Origin: a virus
Virus record (IMG/VR): IMGVR_UViG_3300001213_000048
Coordinates: 1-21,408 of that record
Strand: one strand, 5' to 3'
Length of the DNA stretch: 21,408 bases
Position 1 is the first letter of the stretch; every line of letters begins with the position of its first letter. The notes beneath the pieces were generated by a model. The model was not told the DNA's origin. It saw nothing but the letters and a program-made list of their open reading frames with translations, and did not search any database. A program made the translations under genes and the position numbers. This document shows, piece after piece, positions 16,142 through 21,408 of this stretch.

Positions 16142-17388
16142 GCCTGACCATCGATGGCAACGCCGTCACGTTCGAGGTCGCGCTGTCATCCACCTCCGGA
16201 ACCTACGGCCGGTGGGGCAGGAGCTTGTGGGGCAGCTTCCGATGGGGGCCGGGGGTCGAGTATGTGGACCTGTCCGACCGAATCGAGTCGTTCAGGACCA
16301 CCAGGCAATTTGAGCAGACCAGCCGGACCTGGCGGACCGGAACCGGCACGGTCGTGCTGGATAACGACGATGCGTACCTGTCCGCGCGGGCGGAGGCTGG
16401 CCCGTACATCGGCACGGTGATCCCTCGGCGGCCCTGTCGGCTGACCGCGGTACGGTCCGGGATCACCTACACCCTGCTGACCGGGCGGTGCAGCCTCAAA
16501 CCCAAGGTGCGGTACACCGGTGACGGCCGGGGGCACGCTGTGGTCGAGGCGCAGATCACAGACACATGGGCTGAGTTTCCCCGCATCGACCCCGTGGCGC
16601 TGGGCGCCGCCGTGGGGGCCGGGGACACGTTCGGCGATCGTGTCGCGCGGATTCTGGCGAGTTTCGGCTACACCGGTGCGGCCAGTATCCAGACCGGTGA
16701 CGTCACCATGCAGGCCACGGACCACTCAGCCGCCATCATTACGGAACTGAACAACACCGCAAAGGCTGAAGGCGGGTCCGTGTGGGTGGCATCAGACGGC
16801 GCCGTAATGGCCGCTGGCCGGGATGACCTGTTCACCGCTACCAGGTCCACCGTGGTTCAAGCCACGTTTGGCGGCTACACCCCGGGGTCTCTGAGCATCT
16901 CGGACCCCGAGGAAGACACAGGCGAGTCATACATCTGCAACCGGGCGGAGTACACCCGCGTCGGCGGCACCCGGCAGACGGCTGTGGACGAAGGTTCCCG
17001 CGGCACGTACGGCATGGAACGGGAAACCGAATCCGGTCTGATCTGTGAGACAGACGCACAGGCGCTGTCCCTCGCGCAATGGACGGTGGCCAGCCGGAGG
17101 CAGCCGCACGACACGGTGAGCCGCTGGACCGTGTACCCCGGCAAGGACCCGGCCACGTACTACCCCGTGGTGCTCGGGCTGGCTGAGCGGGACCTGGTCC
17201 AGGTGGACCTACATCCTCCGGGCGGCATCACACCGAGCTATATGTGTCATCTGTCCGGGGTGGAGCACACCGTATCTGCCAAGGATTGGCGCACTGTGTT
17301 CAGCGCATGGGCCGCCGAGCCATACACGACGTACGCCAGTAGCAGGTGGGGCCGCGGCCAGTGGGGCACGTTCCGATGGACACCGTAG
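16138..17388 (+). CDS. Minor tail protein with WG repeats (tail tip)
   Basis: A 416-aa protein starting at ATG 16138 (ATGA overlap). The N-terminus (YGRWGRSLWGSFRWG, residues 23-37) is followed by VDLSDRIESFRTTRQFEQTSRTW and a beta-rich core (GTVVLDNDDAYLS; PCRLTAVRSGITYTLLTG). That order resembles distal-tail and baseplate hub proteins encoded straight after tape measures. The C-terminus repeats the motif as RWGRGQWGTFRW (403-414). It would close the tube and anchor the fibre proteins. The assignment as a tip protein rests on position and on the ENDD-type beta domain; no enzymatic motif was found. Confidence 0.82.
   Translation: MSLTIDGNAVTFEVALSSTSGTYGRWGRSLWGSFRWGPGVEYVDLSDRIESFRTTRQFEQTSRTWRTGTGTVVLDNDDAYLSARAEAGPYIGTVIPRRPCRLTAVRSGITYTLLTGRCSLKPKVRYTGDGRGHAVVEAQITDTWAEFPRIDPVALGAAVGAGDTFGDRVARILASFGYTGAASIQTGDVTMQATDHSAAIITELNNTAKAEGGSVWVASDGAVMAAGRDDLFTATRSTVVQATFGGYTPGSLSISDPEEDTGESYICNRAEYTRVGGTRQTAVDEGSRGTYGMERETESGLICETDAQALSLAQWTVASRRQPHDTVSRWTVYPGKDPATYYPVVLGLAERDLVQVDLHPPGGITPSYMCHLSGVEHTVSAKDWRTVFSAWAAEPYTTYASSRWGRGQWGTFRWTP
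16210..16245 (+). repeat. WG-motif coding direct repeat, copy 1
   Basis: These 36 bases encode the pattern R-W-G-R-x-x-W-G-S-F-R-W at residues 25-36 of the minor tail protein. By eye, 28 of 36 bases agree with the copy at 17344-17379. Confidence 0.75.
17344..17379 (+). repeat. WG-motif coding direct repeat, copy 2
   Basis: These 36 bases encode R-W-G-R-x-x-W-G-T-F-R-W at residues 403-414, nine bases before the stop codon. The copy differs from the first mainly in its middle third. Confidence 0.75.
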
Positions 17389-17401
17389 GGAGTGATTCAG
17401 A

Positions 17402-18097
17402 ATGACAGCATGGTCAGATCTCACGGTTGTCACAGATGACCTGAGCAGTGCAGCGTGGGCGTGCACCGTCCGGGACCGGGTGATCAATCCGTTTGCCTCG
17501 GCGGCAACGCGGGACGCCACCATTACCAGCCTGGTAGCAGGAATGCACACTCACCAGGCTGACTCTGATCACACTTTCTTTCGTTCGTCGTCCGGCACGT
17601 GGGCGCCGGTAGCGCAAAGAATCGTGGGTACGAGGTACTACACAGGTACGGTAACCAGTACAGGCACAGAAGCGTCCATGGTCGCGTGGGCGGTTGCCGA
17701 TCCGGCGTCTGTGGTATTCGAGGATAAGCATTTTTACCGAATTGACTGCACAATCAGTCTGTACAACGATGGCACAGCAAATGCACTGTTTGATAACAAG
17801 TGCCGCTGTCGCGCAACCATTAACTCCATTGCTGGGCAGGAACTCGGAGTGTGGCGCCTGGCTGCTGGCGGGGGTTCGTCTCCGATTCTTACACACGAAG
17901 TATCATGCTTTGTGCACAACGCATCGGGTGCGTCAATCAGTCGAGCACTCAATATCACAGTGCAGAAATCAACCGGTGGAAACGCCTTTTTGGTGGGGTC
18001 AGATAGCCCTAGCGGCATTGTTGTATGGGACTGCGGCCCTACCAGCCGTGTAACGGCTACACAGCTCAGCGGTATGCGTGCGGTATCCCTGACCTGA
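17402..18097 (+). CDS. Tail fibre-type or receptor-binding protein
   Basis: A 231-aa protein starting at ATG 17402 with GGGAG at 17388-17392, overlapping the previous stop region. It is beta-rich throughout (SDHTFFRSSSGTWAPVAQRIVGT; YYTGTVTSTGTEASMVAWAV; FYRIDCTISLYNDGTANALFDNKC; VSCFVHNASGASISRALNITVQKS; SGIVVWDCGPTSRV). There is no membrane segment or catalytic motif. Codon use is less GC-biased (codons such as ATT, TTT, ACA and AAT) than in the flanking genes, a usual sign of a frequently exchanged host-range protein. No named family was recognised. Position after the tail-tip protein and before the lysis genes supports an adhesin role. Confidence 0.7.
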   Translation: MTAWSDLTVVTDDLSSAAWACTVRDRVINPFASAATRDATITSLVAGMHTHQADSDHTFFRSSSGTWAPVAQRIVGTRYYTGTVTSTGTEASMVAWAVADPASVVFEDKHFYRIDCTISLYNDGTANALFDNKCRCRATINSIAGQELGVWRLAAGGGSSPILTHEVSCFVHNASGASISRALNITVQKSTGGNAFLVGSDSPSGIVVWDCGPTSRVTATQLSGMRAVSLT

Positions 18098-18103
18098 CCC
18101 GGG

Positions 18104-18137
18104 TACGCTGTACACATCGACCTGAAGGGGGAAGCAC
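18104..18137 (+). promoter_or_regulatory. Leader with -10-like box and strong ribosome-binding site, copy 1
   Basis: TACGCT at 18104 is followed by ACACATCG and AAGGGGGAAGCAC (18125-18137), directly before ATG 18138. The same ordered elements precede the gene at 20170. No -35 hexamer is evident, so promoter activity is only a possibility; the Shine-Dalgarno itself is clear. Confidence 0.4.
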
Positions 18138-18965
18138 ATGCACCGAGAGAGGTACAGCGGACTGGCACGGGGGGTCCGCGCGGCGCAGCGATGGATGGCA
18201 GCCGCCCTGGTGGCGCTGTTCGTGGTTGCTATCGCTGTGGCCAGCTGTGGCGGGCCAGCCAAAGCACGCCCGGCCGGTGGGCCGCTGTCCATACTGGTGG
18301 TAGGGGATTCAATATCTACTGGGTGCAGCGACGTACCGGTGACCGGCTGGTGCGGGCGGCTGTCTGCCCTGTTGTCCGCGCGGAGCATTGAGCACAGCAT
18401 CGCGGGACACACCGTTGCCGGCCAGTCGTGCGTGACCCTGTCGTACGGGTTCGCTGCGCGGTTCGATCAGGTACAGCCCGATGTTGTGATCCTGAATTGC
18501 GGCACCAACGACGCACCGCTCACAGCCTCCGCGCAGAACCTTGTGGGTGAGCGCTGGCGGACCATGACCGAGTACGCATGGACGCACGGCGCTCACGTAC
18601 TACCAGTGTTCGTCCAATACAGCAATGAAGAAATCAATGAAGAAAATGGGCGATCCTGGCTGTTGCCGGGTGAGGGCGCAGCCAACGATGTGGTGTACGT
18701 CAACATGCAGTACTACATCAGCGCCGGATGGTTTGTCGGACTGGCTGACCTTCAGCGCGTTCCGGGTGATTGGAACTATCTGAACGGCGGCACAGACGGT
18801 ATTCACCCGAATGAATTCGGCCAGAACGTGTACGCGATCATTTTCTACCGAGCGATGCGGGGATTCTACGGCTGGCCGGACACCGTGCCGGAGCCGCGCG
18901 GTATGTGGGGGCACCGTGAGATCTACGGGCCACCGTCGTACATCCCGTGGGAGGTTGCAGCATGA
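18138..18965 (+). CDS. SGNH-type hydrolase with a predicted lipoprotein signal
   Basis: A 275-aa protein starting at ATG 18138 with AAGGGGGAAGC upstream. Residues 3-18 are Arg-rich, 20-36 are hydrophobic, and VASC (Cys37) is a good lipobox followed by GG. The rest is an SGNH/GDSL hydrolase: GDS at 56-58 (Ser58 nucleophile), GTND at 122-125 (Asn124), and DGIH at 220-223 (Asp220, His223). Such enzymes cleave acyl or acetyl esters on lipids and glycans. It lies between the fibre gene and the endolysin, with the downstream start beginning before its stop. A surface-anchored esterase could aid lysis, modify receptors or block superinfection; the substrate is unknown. Confidence 0.82.
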   Translation: MHRERYSGLARGVRAAQRWMAAALVALFVVAIAVASCGGPAKARPAGGPLSILVVGDSISTGCSDVPVTGWCGRLSALLSARSIEHSIAGHTVAGQSCVTLSYGFAARFDQVQPDVVILNCGTNDAPLTASAQNLVGERWRTMTEYAWTHGAHVLPVFVQYSNEEINEENGRSWLLPGEGAANDVVYVNMQYYISAGWFVGLADLQRVPGDWNYLNGGTDGIHPNEFGQNVYAIIFYRAMRGFYGWPDTVPEPRGMWGHREIYGPPSYIPWEVAA

Positions 18966-19825
18966 GCGTCGTTATCGACTACGCCTGGCGCCCACACCCG
19001 AGCGTTGAGGCGATGCGTGCGTACGGCGTGTCCGGAGTGGTCCGGTATCTGTCGTACCTTCCCAACGGCAAGGTCATTGACCGGGCGGAATATCAGGACC
19101 TGGTCAATGCTGGTTTTGACGTGGCTTTCGTGTGGGAGTACAACGCGGACGATTTCTCCCGGACGTCGTTCAACGCCACCTCAGCCGCACGGGAAGCCCT
19201 CCGCCAGCTGAACGTGATCGGAGCACCGGATGACACGGTGATCTATTACGGGCTGGATTGGGACGTACAGGCCAACCAGTGGGGCACGTGCTTGGCCAAG
19301 TTGCGCCAGGTCACTGCGGTGCACGGAGCGTCCCGGACGGGTATCTATGGCCCGTACGATGCGCTGGAAGGGGCGCATCGTGATGGCGTAGCCACGTGGT
19401 TCTGGCAGGCTGGGATGTCCACGGCCTGGTCGTACGGCCGTAACCGCAACGCCTGGCCTGGCGGGTTGCACCTCCGTCAGGTGAGAACTGTCGACCTCGC
19501 GGGGGCCGACGTGGACGTGAACACGATTCATCAGCTGAACTACGGACAGGTAGGGGGAGACATGCCACTGTCACCAGACGACATCAAGGCGATCACACAG
19601 AACGTGACGTGCGCGATCAAGCGCGGGGCATGGAGGGACGGGCACACCGAGGGGACGTTTGATCCCGGATACCGCGGCGGCCCGACGATCGAGACCGTGC
19701 AGGAGCAGGTGCAGGTGGTGGCGGAGGAACTGGTTGGGATCAGCGCGCGGCTGGACCAGCTGGCAACTGCTCCCATCGACTATGACCAGCTGGCGGCGGC
19801 ACTGGTGCGGAGGTTCACCTCATGA
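18962..19825 (+). CDS. Endolysin with DUF1906-like glycoside hydrolase domain
   Basis: A 287-aa protein starting at ATG 18962 with GGGAGG at 18949-18954; GTG 18947 is an upstream alternative. Residues 1-198 form a TIM-barrel hydrolase of the Rv2525c/DUF1906-like kind. Visible are VVIDYAWR (Asp6), GVSGVVRYLSYLPNGKVIDRAEYQDL, FVWEYNADDF (Glu59), YYGLDWDVQANQ (Asp99, Asp101), TGIYGPYDALE, WFWQAGMSTAWSYG and DVDVNTIHQLNYGQ. From residue ~200 there is a helical C-terminal domain (SPDDIKAITQNV; a coiled-coil-like ETVQEQVQVVAEELVGISARLDQL) in place of a typical wall-binding repeat. It would degrade peptidoglycan glycan strands. It has no signal peptide, so it depends on a holin. Confidence 0.85.
   Translation: MSVVIDYAWRPHPSVEAMRAYGVSGVVRYLSYLPNGKVIDRAEYQDLVNAGFDVAFVWEYNADDFSRTSFNATSAAREALRQLNVIGAPDDTVIYYGLDWDVQANQWGTCLAKLRQVTAVHGASRTGIYGPYDALEGAHRDGVATWFWQAGMSTAWSYGRNRNAWPGGLHLRQVRTVDLAGADVDVNTIHQLNYGQVGGDMPLSPDDIKAITQNVTCAIKRGAWRDGHTEGTFDPGYRGGPTIETVQEQVQVVAEELVGISARLDQLATAPIDYDQLAAALVRRFTS
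19552..19564 (+). promoter_or_regulatory. Internal ribosome-binding site and in-frame ATG in the endolysin gene
   Basis: AGGGGGAG (19552-19559) stands two bases before ATG 19562, which is in frame as Met201, exactly at the junction of catalytic and C-terminal domains. Spacing is shorter than ideal. Initiation here would give an 87-aa C-terminal-domain protein (19562-19825). Confidence 0.45.
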
Positions 19826-20085
19826 GGCCCACGCTGGCACGGATGGTGCACTACCGGGGCCGGCACGGACTCCAGACGGTCCGGGCCGCCGTGGTCACGG
19901 CGACACAGGCGGAGCTTGACCCGCGTGGTGTGGTCACCGGCCAGGTTCCGGCGCTGGACAGTCCCACCCACGTGCACCTGTGGGTGTTCACGCCGGGCGG
20001 ACCGGGATTCTCCGAGAGCAACGTTCCGCAGTGCACGGAGGCTGAGTTGCAACCGGGCACGTGGATGTGGCCACCCCGGGTCTGA
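19822..20085 (+). CDS. Small conserved phage protein, 87 aa
   Basis: ATG 19822 overlaps the endolysin stop (ATGA) and has GGAGG at 19809-19813. The sequence begins with a short basic stretch and MVHYRGRHGLQTVRAAVVTATQAE, continues THVHLWVFTPGGPGFSESNVPQC and ends PGTWMWPPRV. The combination of VHY near the start, an AAVVT strand and a terminal GTW-x-W-P resembles a widespread small phage family of unknown function that is often near lysis genes. It has no membrane segment. A terminator follows within 12 bases, so this is the last gene of its sub-operon. Confidence 0.75.
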   Translation: MRPTLARMVHYRGRHGLQTVRAAVVTATQAELDPRGVVTGQVPALDSPTHVHLWVFTPGGPGFSESNVPQCTEAELQPGTWMWPPRV

Positions 20086-20096
20086 CCGAACGGAGG

Positions 20097-20126
20097 ACGG
20101 CCGGCACGGGGTTCTGTGCCGGCCGT
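20097..20126 (+). terminator. Intrinsic terminator after the endolysin block
   Basis: An 11-bp perfect stem (ACGGCCGGCAC with GTGCCGGCCGT) encloses the 8-base loop GGGGTTCT and is followed by TTGCTT. It separates the endolysin group from the membrane-protein group. Confidence 0.85.
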
Positions 20127-20131
20127 TTGCT

Positions 20132-20169
20132 TACGGTGGATCAACACACATCGTAAGGGGGAAGCACTC
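20132..20169 (+). promoter_or_regulatory. Leader with -10-like box and strong ribosome-binding site, copy 2
   Basis: TACGGT at 20132, CACACATCG at 20145-20153 and AAGGGGGAAGCAC at 20155-20167 repeat the leader before the SGNH gene. It lies straight after a terminator, where a fresh promoter would make sense. No -35 box is obvious. Confidence 0.42.
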
Positions 20170-20511
20170 GTGACATTCATGGAGCGCGTGACTGCGGGAT
20201 CGGCCGTTATCGTGGCGGTAGCAGCGGCGCTGGCGGTGATCGGCAGAACACTGAGGCAGGCACACCACATGATGAAGAGAATCACTGCACTGTTGGACAC
20301 CCTCAACGGGACTCCAGAGCAGGATGGGCACCCGGCCCGGCCGGGGGTAGCGGAACGGCTTGACATGATCACTGCGACGCTGGACCAGCATGGTCAGCGC
20401 CTGGTCGCGATCGAGGCACAGGTGACCCCCAACGGCGGCACCACGGGCAGGCTGGGCGACACCGTGAGCAGGATCGCCACAGCGACAGGAGCGAGGGAGG
20501 CAACCTCATGA
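20170..20511 (+). CDS. Membrane protein with N-terminal anchor, lysis cassette
   Basis: A 113-aa protein starting at GTG 20170; AGGGGGAAG at 20156-20164 suits this start, and ATG 20179 is an alternative. One hydrophobic span lies at residues ~8-26 (TAGSAVIVAVAAALAVIG), followed by a charged helical tail with coiled-coil potential (HMMKRITALLDTLNGT; ERLDMITATLDQHGQRLVAIEAQV). Small one-span proteins with a cytoplasmic helical tail commonly accompany holins in actinophages. It is the first of three membrane genes with overlapping ends. A holin or holin-regulator role is inferred from context. Confidence 0.72.
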   Translation: MTFMERVTAGSAVIVAVAAALAVIGRTLRQAHHMMKRITALLDTLNGTPEQDGHPARPGVAERLDMITATLDQHGQRLVAIEAQVTPNGGTTGRLGDTVSRIATATGAREATS

Positions 20512-20741
20512 GGCGATGGTGGATCGACACGGGTGAGCGGGTGGTGTCCACGGCCGTGGGCGCCTTCCTCGCGGTCATGGTGGCCCGGCTGTCCGGGACG
20601 GACGCGTTCAGCGACGTGGACTGGCGCACCGCGCTGGACGTGTCCTCGCTGGCCGCACTCGTGTCCCTGATCAAGGCCATCCTGGCAACCAGGGTGGGCG
20701 ACAAGAACAGCGCGGCGCTGCTTCCCGCGGACAAGTCATGA
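20508..20741 (+). CDS. Holin (two transmembrane segments)
   Basis: A 77-aa protein starting at ATG 20508 with GAGGGAGG at 20492-20499. The N-terminal WWIDTGERVVSTAVGAFLAVMVARL contains the first span (~11-28); VDWRTALDVSSLAALVSLIKAILAT contains the second (~41-60); the C-terminus is polar. The D-x-x-ERV-x-ST start and the VDW-x-x-AL-x-x-x-x-x-AAL-x-SL-x-K second span match the small r1t-like holins of actinophages. It would permeabilise the membrane and release the endolysin. Both ends overlap its neighbours (ATGA). Confidence 0.82.
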   Translation: MRRWWIDTGERVVSTAVGAFLAVMVARLSGTDAFSDVDWRTALDVSSLAALVSLIKAILATRVGDKNSAALLPADKS

Positions 20742-20968
20742 CCGCGTTCACCCTGTTCTGGATCTCATGGGGTGTGCTGGGCGGGCTGGTCGAGTTGACC
20801 GCGCTGGCGCGCAAGGCACCAGACGACACGCTGTCAGAGCATGTCTGGCGCTGGATTCGTGTGGGTGACCCGCGCCCAACGGTGCCGTTCGTGCTGCTCC
20901 GGGTGTTCACGGCGGTGGCGTGTGTGTGGCTGGCGGTGCACTTTTCCACTGGCCGGCTGAGTTTCTGA
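20738..20968 (+). CDS. Second small membrane protein of the lysis cassette
   Basis: A 76-aa protein starting at ATG 20738 (overlapping the holin stop). It has spans at ~5-22 (TLFWISWGVLGGLVELTAL) and ~50-70 (PFVLLRVFTAVACVWLAVHF), separated by a polar loop with DDTLSEHVWRWIRVGD. An E-x-TAL first span with TLSEHVW and a final HF-x-TGR fits a small conserved actinophage membrane family placed next to holins. Whether it is a second holin, an antiholin or another lysis factor cannot be decided. A strong terminator follows. Confidence 0.75.
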   Translation: MTAFTLFWISWGVLGGLVELTALARKAPDDTLSEHVWRWIRVGDPRPTVPFVLLRVFTAVACVWLAVHFSTGRLSF

Positions 20969-20976
20969 CGTAGCAA

Positions 20977-21004
20977 GAAGCCCCGGCCACTCGGCCGGGG
21001 CTTC
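20977..21004. terminator. Strong terminator between convergent gene blocks
   Basis: A perfect 12-bp stem (GAAGCCCCGGCC with GGCCGGGGCTTC) has a four-base ACTC loop. CCTATTTC follows on the + side. It lies between the last rightward gene and the leftward pair, so it probably ends late transcription and may also work in the other direction. Confidence 0.9.
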
Positions 21005-21014
21005 CCTATTTCAT

Positions 21015-21040
21015 GATCCAAATTCTCGAGAATGTGGATC
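21015..21040. repeat. 26-bp palindrome with an AT-rich core
   Basis: The two 13-base arms are complementary at 12 of 13 positions: GATCCA and TGGATC flank the perfect 12-base palindrome ATTCTCGAGAAT, with one A/G mismatch between. It is more AT-rich than its surroundings and ends one base before the stop codon of the leftward gene. Operator, transcript hairpin or attachment-site core are all possible. Confidence 0.6.
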
Positions 21041-21041
21041 T

Positions 21042-21254
21042 CTAGCACACCGTCGCGGCGCGGCGCACCTCGACTTCCACGGCGGGATCGGCCATGATCC
21101 CGGGGAATTCCTCCCGGAGGGTCGAGATCACTCGCTGCACGCTGTCCTCTATGAGTGGGGCCGGGCACGCCAGGCTGAGTTCTTGCTGCTCCCGCACCTT
21201 GTTGGTGGCCACCAGTTCCACCAGCCGCGCGTCAAACGCATCGAAGTCAGACAT
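21042..21254 (-). CDS. Hypothetical protein, 70 aa, leftward
   Basis: On the minus strand, ATG at 21254-21252 is preceded by AAGGAG, a strong Shine-Dalgarno with good spacing; the TAG is at 21044-21042. The protein is acidic and mostly helical (MSDFDAFDARLVELVATNKVREQQEL; LIEDSVQRVISTLREEFPGIM; VEVEVRRAATVC), with two isolated cysteines. No family was recognised. It overlaps the upstream leftward gene by eight bases (ATGTCTGA) and ends at a palindrome. It belongs to the region beyond the late operon, where leftward small genes of early or regulatory function are common. Confidence 0.72.
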   Translation of the reverse strand: MSDFDAFDARLVELVATNKVREQQELSLACPAPLIEDSVQRVISTLREEFPGIMADPAVEVEVRRAATVC

Positions 21255-21408
21255 TGCTTTTCTCCTTGATCAGCAGCTCAGCCGTCCGGGTGCAGTCCTC
21301 GCACTTGCACAGCACCCACGGGGCGTGCTGCGGCTGACTGACCCGGGTAGGCCAGTCGATCGCCGTGGGCAGTAGATCAGCCGGGTGGTATGTGGTCCGG
21401 CCGGGGGG
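21247..21408 (-). CDS. C-terminal part of a Cys-cluster protein, leftward (5' end outside window)
   Basis: The minus-strand frame is open from the window edge (21408) to a TGA at 21249-21247 and gives 53 residues with strong GC third positions. It ends HAPWVLCKCEDC, then TRTAELLIKEKSNV. The C-x-C-x-x-C cluster suggests a metal site. The stop overlaps the next gene's ATG, so the two are translated together. Function is unknown; the N-terminal part is not in the window. Confidence 0.6.
   Translation of the reverse strand, partial: PPGRTTYHPADLLPTAIDWPTRVSQPQHAPWVLCKCEDCTRTAELLIKEKSNV

Follow-up and report, generated by a model that had tools for sequence, protein, structure and literature searches.

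A divergent SGNH hydrolase with a putative lipobox, encoded directly ahead of the endolysin in a probable actinobacterial phage, as a candidate accessory lysis esterase

Why would a tailed phage carry, directly ahead of its endolysin gene, a gene for an SGNH hydrolase whose N-terminus looks like a signal? The usual account of how Gram-positive hosts are lysed involves a holin and an endolysin, to which LysB, an alpha/beta-hydrolase acting as a mycolyl-arabinogalactan esterase, is added for bacteria with mycolic acids. The locus lies in IMG/VR record IMGVR_UViG_3300001213_000048, a 21.4-kb fragment whose 21,408 bases are referred to here as the window. Its genes encode a terminase, portal, ClpP-type protease, capsid and tail proteins, followed by a lysis cassette, and the phage that it comes from is a tailed one whose relatives are actinobacterial. 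Among named phages, the terminase is nearest to that of Thermobifida phage P1312 (61%) and then Streptomyces phage Dagobah (54%), and the capsid protein is nearest to that of Dagobah (47%). Relatives of the terminase also reside within genomes of Streptomyces, Actinomadura, Nonomuraea, Prauserella and Kitasatospora, all of which are without mycolic acids, and relatives of the capsid protein occur in more genomes from the same family and order as the Nonomuraea genome. Since these relatives are found in actinobacteria, the host of the window phage is probably an actinobacterium as well. The related terminase and capsid genes in bacterial chromosomes also imply that the wider phage group includes temperate phages. 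The features of the locus are collected in Table 1.

Table 1. Features of the SGNH hydrolase gene and the adjoining lysis cassette (window coordinates).
Feature	Coordinates	Strand	Basis
Gene upstream of the SGNH gene, end of tail module, function not assigned	17402..18097	+	Weak phrog_16452 match; low GC3
Ribosome-binding region ACCTGAAGGGGGAAGCAC ahead of ATG	18120..18137	+	Sequence
SGNH/GDSL hydrolase gene, 275 aa	18138..18965	+	ORF; PF13472, 53.1 bits
Putative signal segment, with an Arg-rich n-region at aa 1-19 and a hydrophobic core at aa 20-36	18138..18245	+	Hydropathy
Putative lipobox V34-A35-S36-C37, then GG	18237..18248	+	Matches PS51257 core expression; narrowly outside its position rule
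Catalytic block I, GDSISTG with Ser58	18303..18323	+	Sequence
Block III, GTND with Asn124	18501..18512	+	Sequence
Block V, DGIHP with Asp220 and His223	18795..18809	+	Sequence
ATGA overlap of SGNH stop and endolysin start	18962..18965	+	Sequence
Endolysin with Rv2525c-like (DUF1906) glycoside-hydrolase-like domain	18962..19825	+	PF08924, E 9e-17; phrog_13480 endolysin
87-aa protein, phrog_2293, no known function	19822..20085	+	PHROG
One-TM protein, phrog_9869 (ORF listed from 20116; ATG 20179)	20179..20511	+	PHROG, hydropathy
r1t-type holin, two hydrophobic segments	20508..20741	+	PF16945, 57 bits; phrog_443
76-aa membrane protein, phrog_3555	20738..20968	+	PHROG, hydropathy
Terminator-like 12-bp hairpin ending the cassette	20977..21004	+	Sequence

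The enzyme family is the firmest part of the answer. Residues 54-229 match Lipase_GDSL_2 (PF13472) along positions 1-176 of the 178-position profile (E 7e-14; 53.1 bits, against a cut-off of 32.9), and the Pfam family Lipase_GDSL also scores above its own cut-off, at 32.4 bits. The original prediction of an SGNH hydrolase with a full catalytic set was borne out, as all four residues are in place within blocks I, III and V, and a block II glycine (G95) lies near these motifs. Only GDSL-type families were matched by Pfam, which found in this protein no LysB- or cutinase-like alpha/beta-hydrolase domain and no tail-attachment or carbohydrate-binding region; the enzyme is a stand-alone domain of ~230 residues. 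It is very divergent, sharing about 23-29% identity with the relatives used for comparison, and AlphaFold2 models (pLDDT 44 and 36) were too poor to judge the three-layer SGNH fold. Searches by tblastn found no relatives of the protein in INPHARED phages at 1e-5 and none in plasmids, a peptide-pattern search of IMG/VR and GTDB contigs found none, and 394 genomes of the class held no match at E<=1e-9. Chromosomal SGNH matches were set aside, being ordinary distant members of the family, and an alignment of five SGNH proteins contained no stretch sufficiently conserved for scanning.

The N-terminus resembles an export signal. Five Arg and one Glu fall among the first 19 residues, and the hydrophobic core has a mean Kyte-Doolittle value of 2.96 across 15 residues. 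When the window was scanned for a lipoprotein pattern (a charged n-region, a hydrophobic core and [LVI][ASTVI][GAS]C within the first 45 residues), the SGNH ORF alone carried it among 134 ORFs of at least 60 residues; by chance the pattern arose in 4 of 19,800 composition-random N-termini and in 0.1% of shuffles of the SGNH N-terminus. The predicted lipobox, VASC-GG at the end of an Arg-rich, hydrophobic segment, thus stood as far as the core pattern goes. It did not extend to the stricter rules, as the Cys at 37 lies outside the PROSITE position rule (Cys at 15-35) and the Ser at -1 departs from the strict Gram-positive G+LPP pattern. Because of these two departures we grade lipidation at Cys37 as probable, not established. 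A true start downstream of the signal, which had been named as a finding that would undo the prediction, appears unlikely. An in-frame TGA at 18123 closes the frame, so that M1 (ATG at 18138) is the earliest possible start, and it is preceded by a good ribosome-binding region with GAAGGGGG six bases upstream. The later candidates are unsuitable: an ATG (M20) and GTGs lie within the hydrophobic segment and V54 within the first enzyme strand, and no common start codon in the ORF drops the whole signal segment yet keeps the enzyme core.

Where the gene sits bears most directly on its role. It shares one operon with the endolysin and the r1t-type holin, closed by a single terminator, and so falls within the lysis cassette, where neighboring genes mostly overlap by ATGA. 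A scan from 17300 to 21408 for sigma-70-like promoters, which would miss other types of actinobacterial promoter, found none. The third-position GC content (GC3) of the SGNH gene is 0.725, compared with 0.781 for the endolysin gene. We considered and rejected the reading of the SGNH gene as a moron, as a promoter or terminator of its own was not found and its GC3 is close to that of the endolysin. Judged by this arrangement, the gene appears to be built into the late operon at the tail/lysis boundary, unlike a typical set-apart moron. Immediately upstream lies a gene with a GC3 of only 0.58, where the other genes measured gave 0.72-0.91, and this low value suggests a recent import.

Among 49 viral records searched for PF13472, nearly all of them collected by terminase similarity and one by endolysin, the family was present in two. 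One of these, IMGVR_UViG_3300049437_000042, is the closest to the window phage by terminase (TerL 68%; holin 46%) and is called here the sister phage. Its cassette consists of an endolysin that carries a peptidoglycan-binding domain, then a phrog_9869-like protein, the holin, a 237-residue SGNH protein and a phrog_3555 protein. The sister SGNH gene shares an ATGA with the holin stop at one end and another with the start of phrog_3555 at the other, and thus occupies a junction that is direct in the window phage. Its product is 23% identical to the window SGNH protein and lacks a hydrophobic N-terminus. The simplest reading would be that the two phages acquired their SGNH genes separately, each at its own position in the lysis operon; a single move followed by strong divergence is possible. 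The presence of one kind of enzyme in two slots of the same operon suggests that an esterase is selected for at lysis.

Two side observations concern the same pair of phages. Cys72 and Cys98 of the window SGNH protein align, in a weak alignment, with cysteines of the leaderless sister enzyme (L103:12370-13080), and the pair might form a disulfide. The phrog_3555 membrane protein, whose family has no function assigned, ends the lysis operon in both phages, with 47% identity, and because it closes the operon in both it may be considered a candidate lysis protein.

The second PF13472 record (G043) was dropped as support: its SGNH-like gene neighbors the tail module, and the block III Asn is missing (GAVPYG). 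In that terminase relative, the SGNH-like gene is adjoined by a gene for a 1121-residue tail-module protein that matches a phosphodiesterase PHROG (L104:5429-8794). Other relatives whose endolysin has a DUF1906 domain (G001, G009 and G018) carried no SGNH gene, nor did one phage whose endolysin is 52% identical to that of the window; since such phages exist, the SGNH gene is accessory. None was found in the scanned stretches of eight prophages with related capsid genes or of terminase-related prophages.

We favor the view that the window SGNH protein acts as an accessory esterase in lysis after early export and tethering to the membrane, and assign this reading a probability of roughly one half. 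A lysis role is favored over superinfection exclusion or a trait of the lysogen because the gene is coupled to the endolysin through ATGA and has no recognizable promoter or terminator of its own, and because the sister lysis operon holds a second SGNH gene. The enzyme would be made late from the tail-lysis transcript, its translation coupled to that of the endolysin, and would be exported through Sec before the holin fires. Lipidated Cys37 would tie it, with a linker of ~14 residues, to the outside of the cytoplasmic membrane, from where the Ser-His-Asp site could remove acyl or acetyl groups held by ester bonds on a substrate near the membrane. Candidate substrates are O-acetylated wall glycan, a lipid-anchored glycan or teichoic acid, and phospholipid. 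PF13472 (GDSL-2) includes carbohydrate O-acetylesterases and Ape1, and O-acetyl groups on wall glycan confer lysozyme resistance (PMC9487903). The outcome may be better endolysin activity or a fuller burst of the envelope. The leaderless sister enzyme would instead be released by the holin together with the endolysin. Two observations point against the lysis-esterase reading: the pattern of a lysis-operon SGNH is limited to one sister phage, and the leaderless sister enzyme means that export before lysis is no common feature.

The same lysis role could be played by a secreted esterase that is not lipidated, either cut by signal peptidase I or retained through an uncleaved N-terminal anchor. 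AXA motifs at 33-35 and 41-43 provide such sites (AVA-S and AKA-R), and the departures of Cys37 and its -1 Ser from the lipoprotein rules favor this version; on the other side, chance seldom places a core lipobox just where the hydrophobic core stops, with GG next to it, and we regard unlipidated secretion as unlikely while giving it some weight. About as unlikely, in our estimation a shade more so, is superinfection exclusion or lysogenic conversion, in which a surface esterase alters the phage receptor or helps the lysogen. An export signal, temperate members in the wider phage group and a patchy, cargo-like distribution all agree with it, yet the gene is coupled to the endolysin start in a late operon without a recognizable promoter of its own, and the sister enzyme has no leader, its gene being held just as firmly within the lysis operon.

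A gene at the tail/lysis boundary could also encode a virion protein or cargo, a further point against the lysis-esterase reading. That the protein is a virion-associated tail depolymerase or deacetylase, encoded last in the tail module, draws on a weak PHROG tail-fiber match and on known SGNH domains in phage tail proteins, namely those of Curtobacterium prophages (PMC9862828) and Jacko gp52, which lies in a tail module. The signal-like N-terminus, the lone domain free of Pfam-detectable attachment regions and the endolysin coupling argue against this, and we consider it decidedly unlikely. Very improbable is a selectively neutral, recent gain of a host lipoprotein esterase with no role for the phage. 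Secreted SGNH enzymes are widespread in actinobacteria and a close phage relative was not found, but neither did the genomes of the class yield a source at the threshold used, the catalytic set is intact, the gene is tightly coupled to the next one, and its GC3 is near that of the adjoining endolysin.

The accessory lysis esterase that we favor would combine components that are known separately, as SGNH hydrolases, phage lysis esterases (LysB) and phage lysis lipoproteins (outer spanins) have all been described. In the literature searched, which comprised open-licence papers only, we did not find a lipobox-bearing SGNH protein reported in a lysis cassette, nor the combination of an SGNH esterase, a putative lipobox and endolysin coupling in an actinophage. 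An exported esterase coupled to an endolysin would indicate that phages of other actinobacteria have a further barrier or wall ester modification to remove, and the enzyme would be a candidate partner for endolysins. For the window phage it suggests an extra step in host bursting that weakens the wall or membrane. As a tentative and rather doubtful extension, some phages of non-mycolata actinobacteria may use a membrane-lipidated SGNH protein as a third lysis enzyme, which would take acyl or acetyl groups off a glycan of the wall or close to the membrane before the holin acts; this equivalent of LysB would have been acquired by sister phages in independent events.

SGNH enzymes reported from actinophages include the tail-associated deacetylases of actinobacterial prophages (PMC9862828) and gp52 of Microbacterium phage Jacko; these are larger, belong to tail modules or are proposed depolymerases, and have no endolysin coupling. 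With PF13472 hydrolases in general, the window protein shares the block I, III and V motifs and the full catalytic set, and differs in being very divergent and in sitting in a phage lysis operon. Outer spanins such as lambda Rz1 are likewise phage lysis lipoproteins whose export precedes lysis; they are non-enzymatic and act at the Gram-negative outer membrane. LysZ of a corynephage, described as spanin-like with a proposed action on lipid-anchored glycans (PMC13056207), is similar in being an accessory lysis protein, proposed for actinophages, that is anchored in the membrane and lies outside the cytoplasm, and is set apart by its description as a one-TM protein, whereas the window protein is an enzyme with a putative lipobox. 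LysB (PMC5707550) is, like LysZ, a precedent for an additional lysis protein of actinophages that acts on the envelope, and a survey of Arthrobacter phages notes that those phages lack it (PMC5513430). The original prediction had proposed a lysis aid in place of LysB, as one of three roles beside superinfection exclusion and service to a prophage-carrying host; the lysis aid is the part that we retain, on the grounds of coupling, operon and sister phage, and LysB serves only as an analogy. In both cases a serine esterase gene lies beside the endolysin gene in an actinophage lysis cassette, but the window enzyme belongs to a different family, SGNH, has a signal-like N-terminus, is encoded ahead of the endolysin, and comes from a phage whose relatives with known hosts infect non-mycolata.
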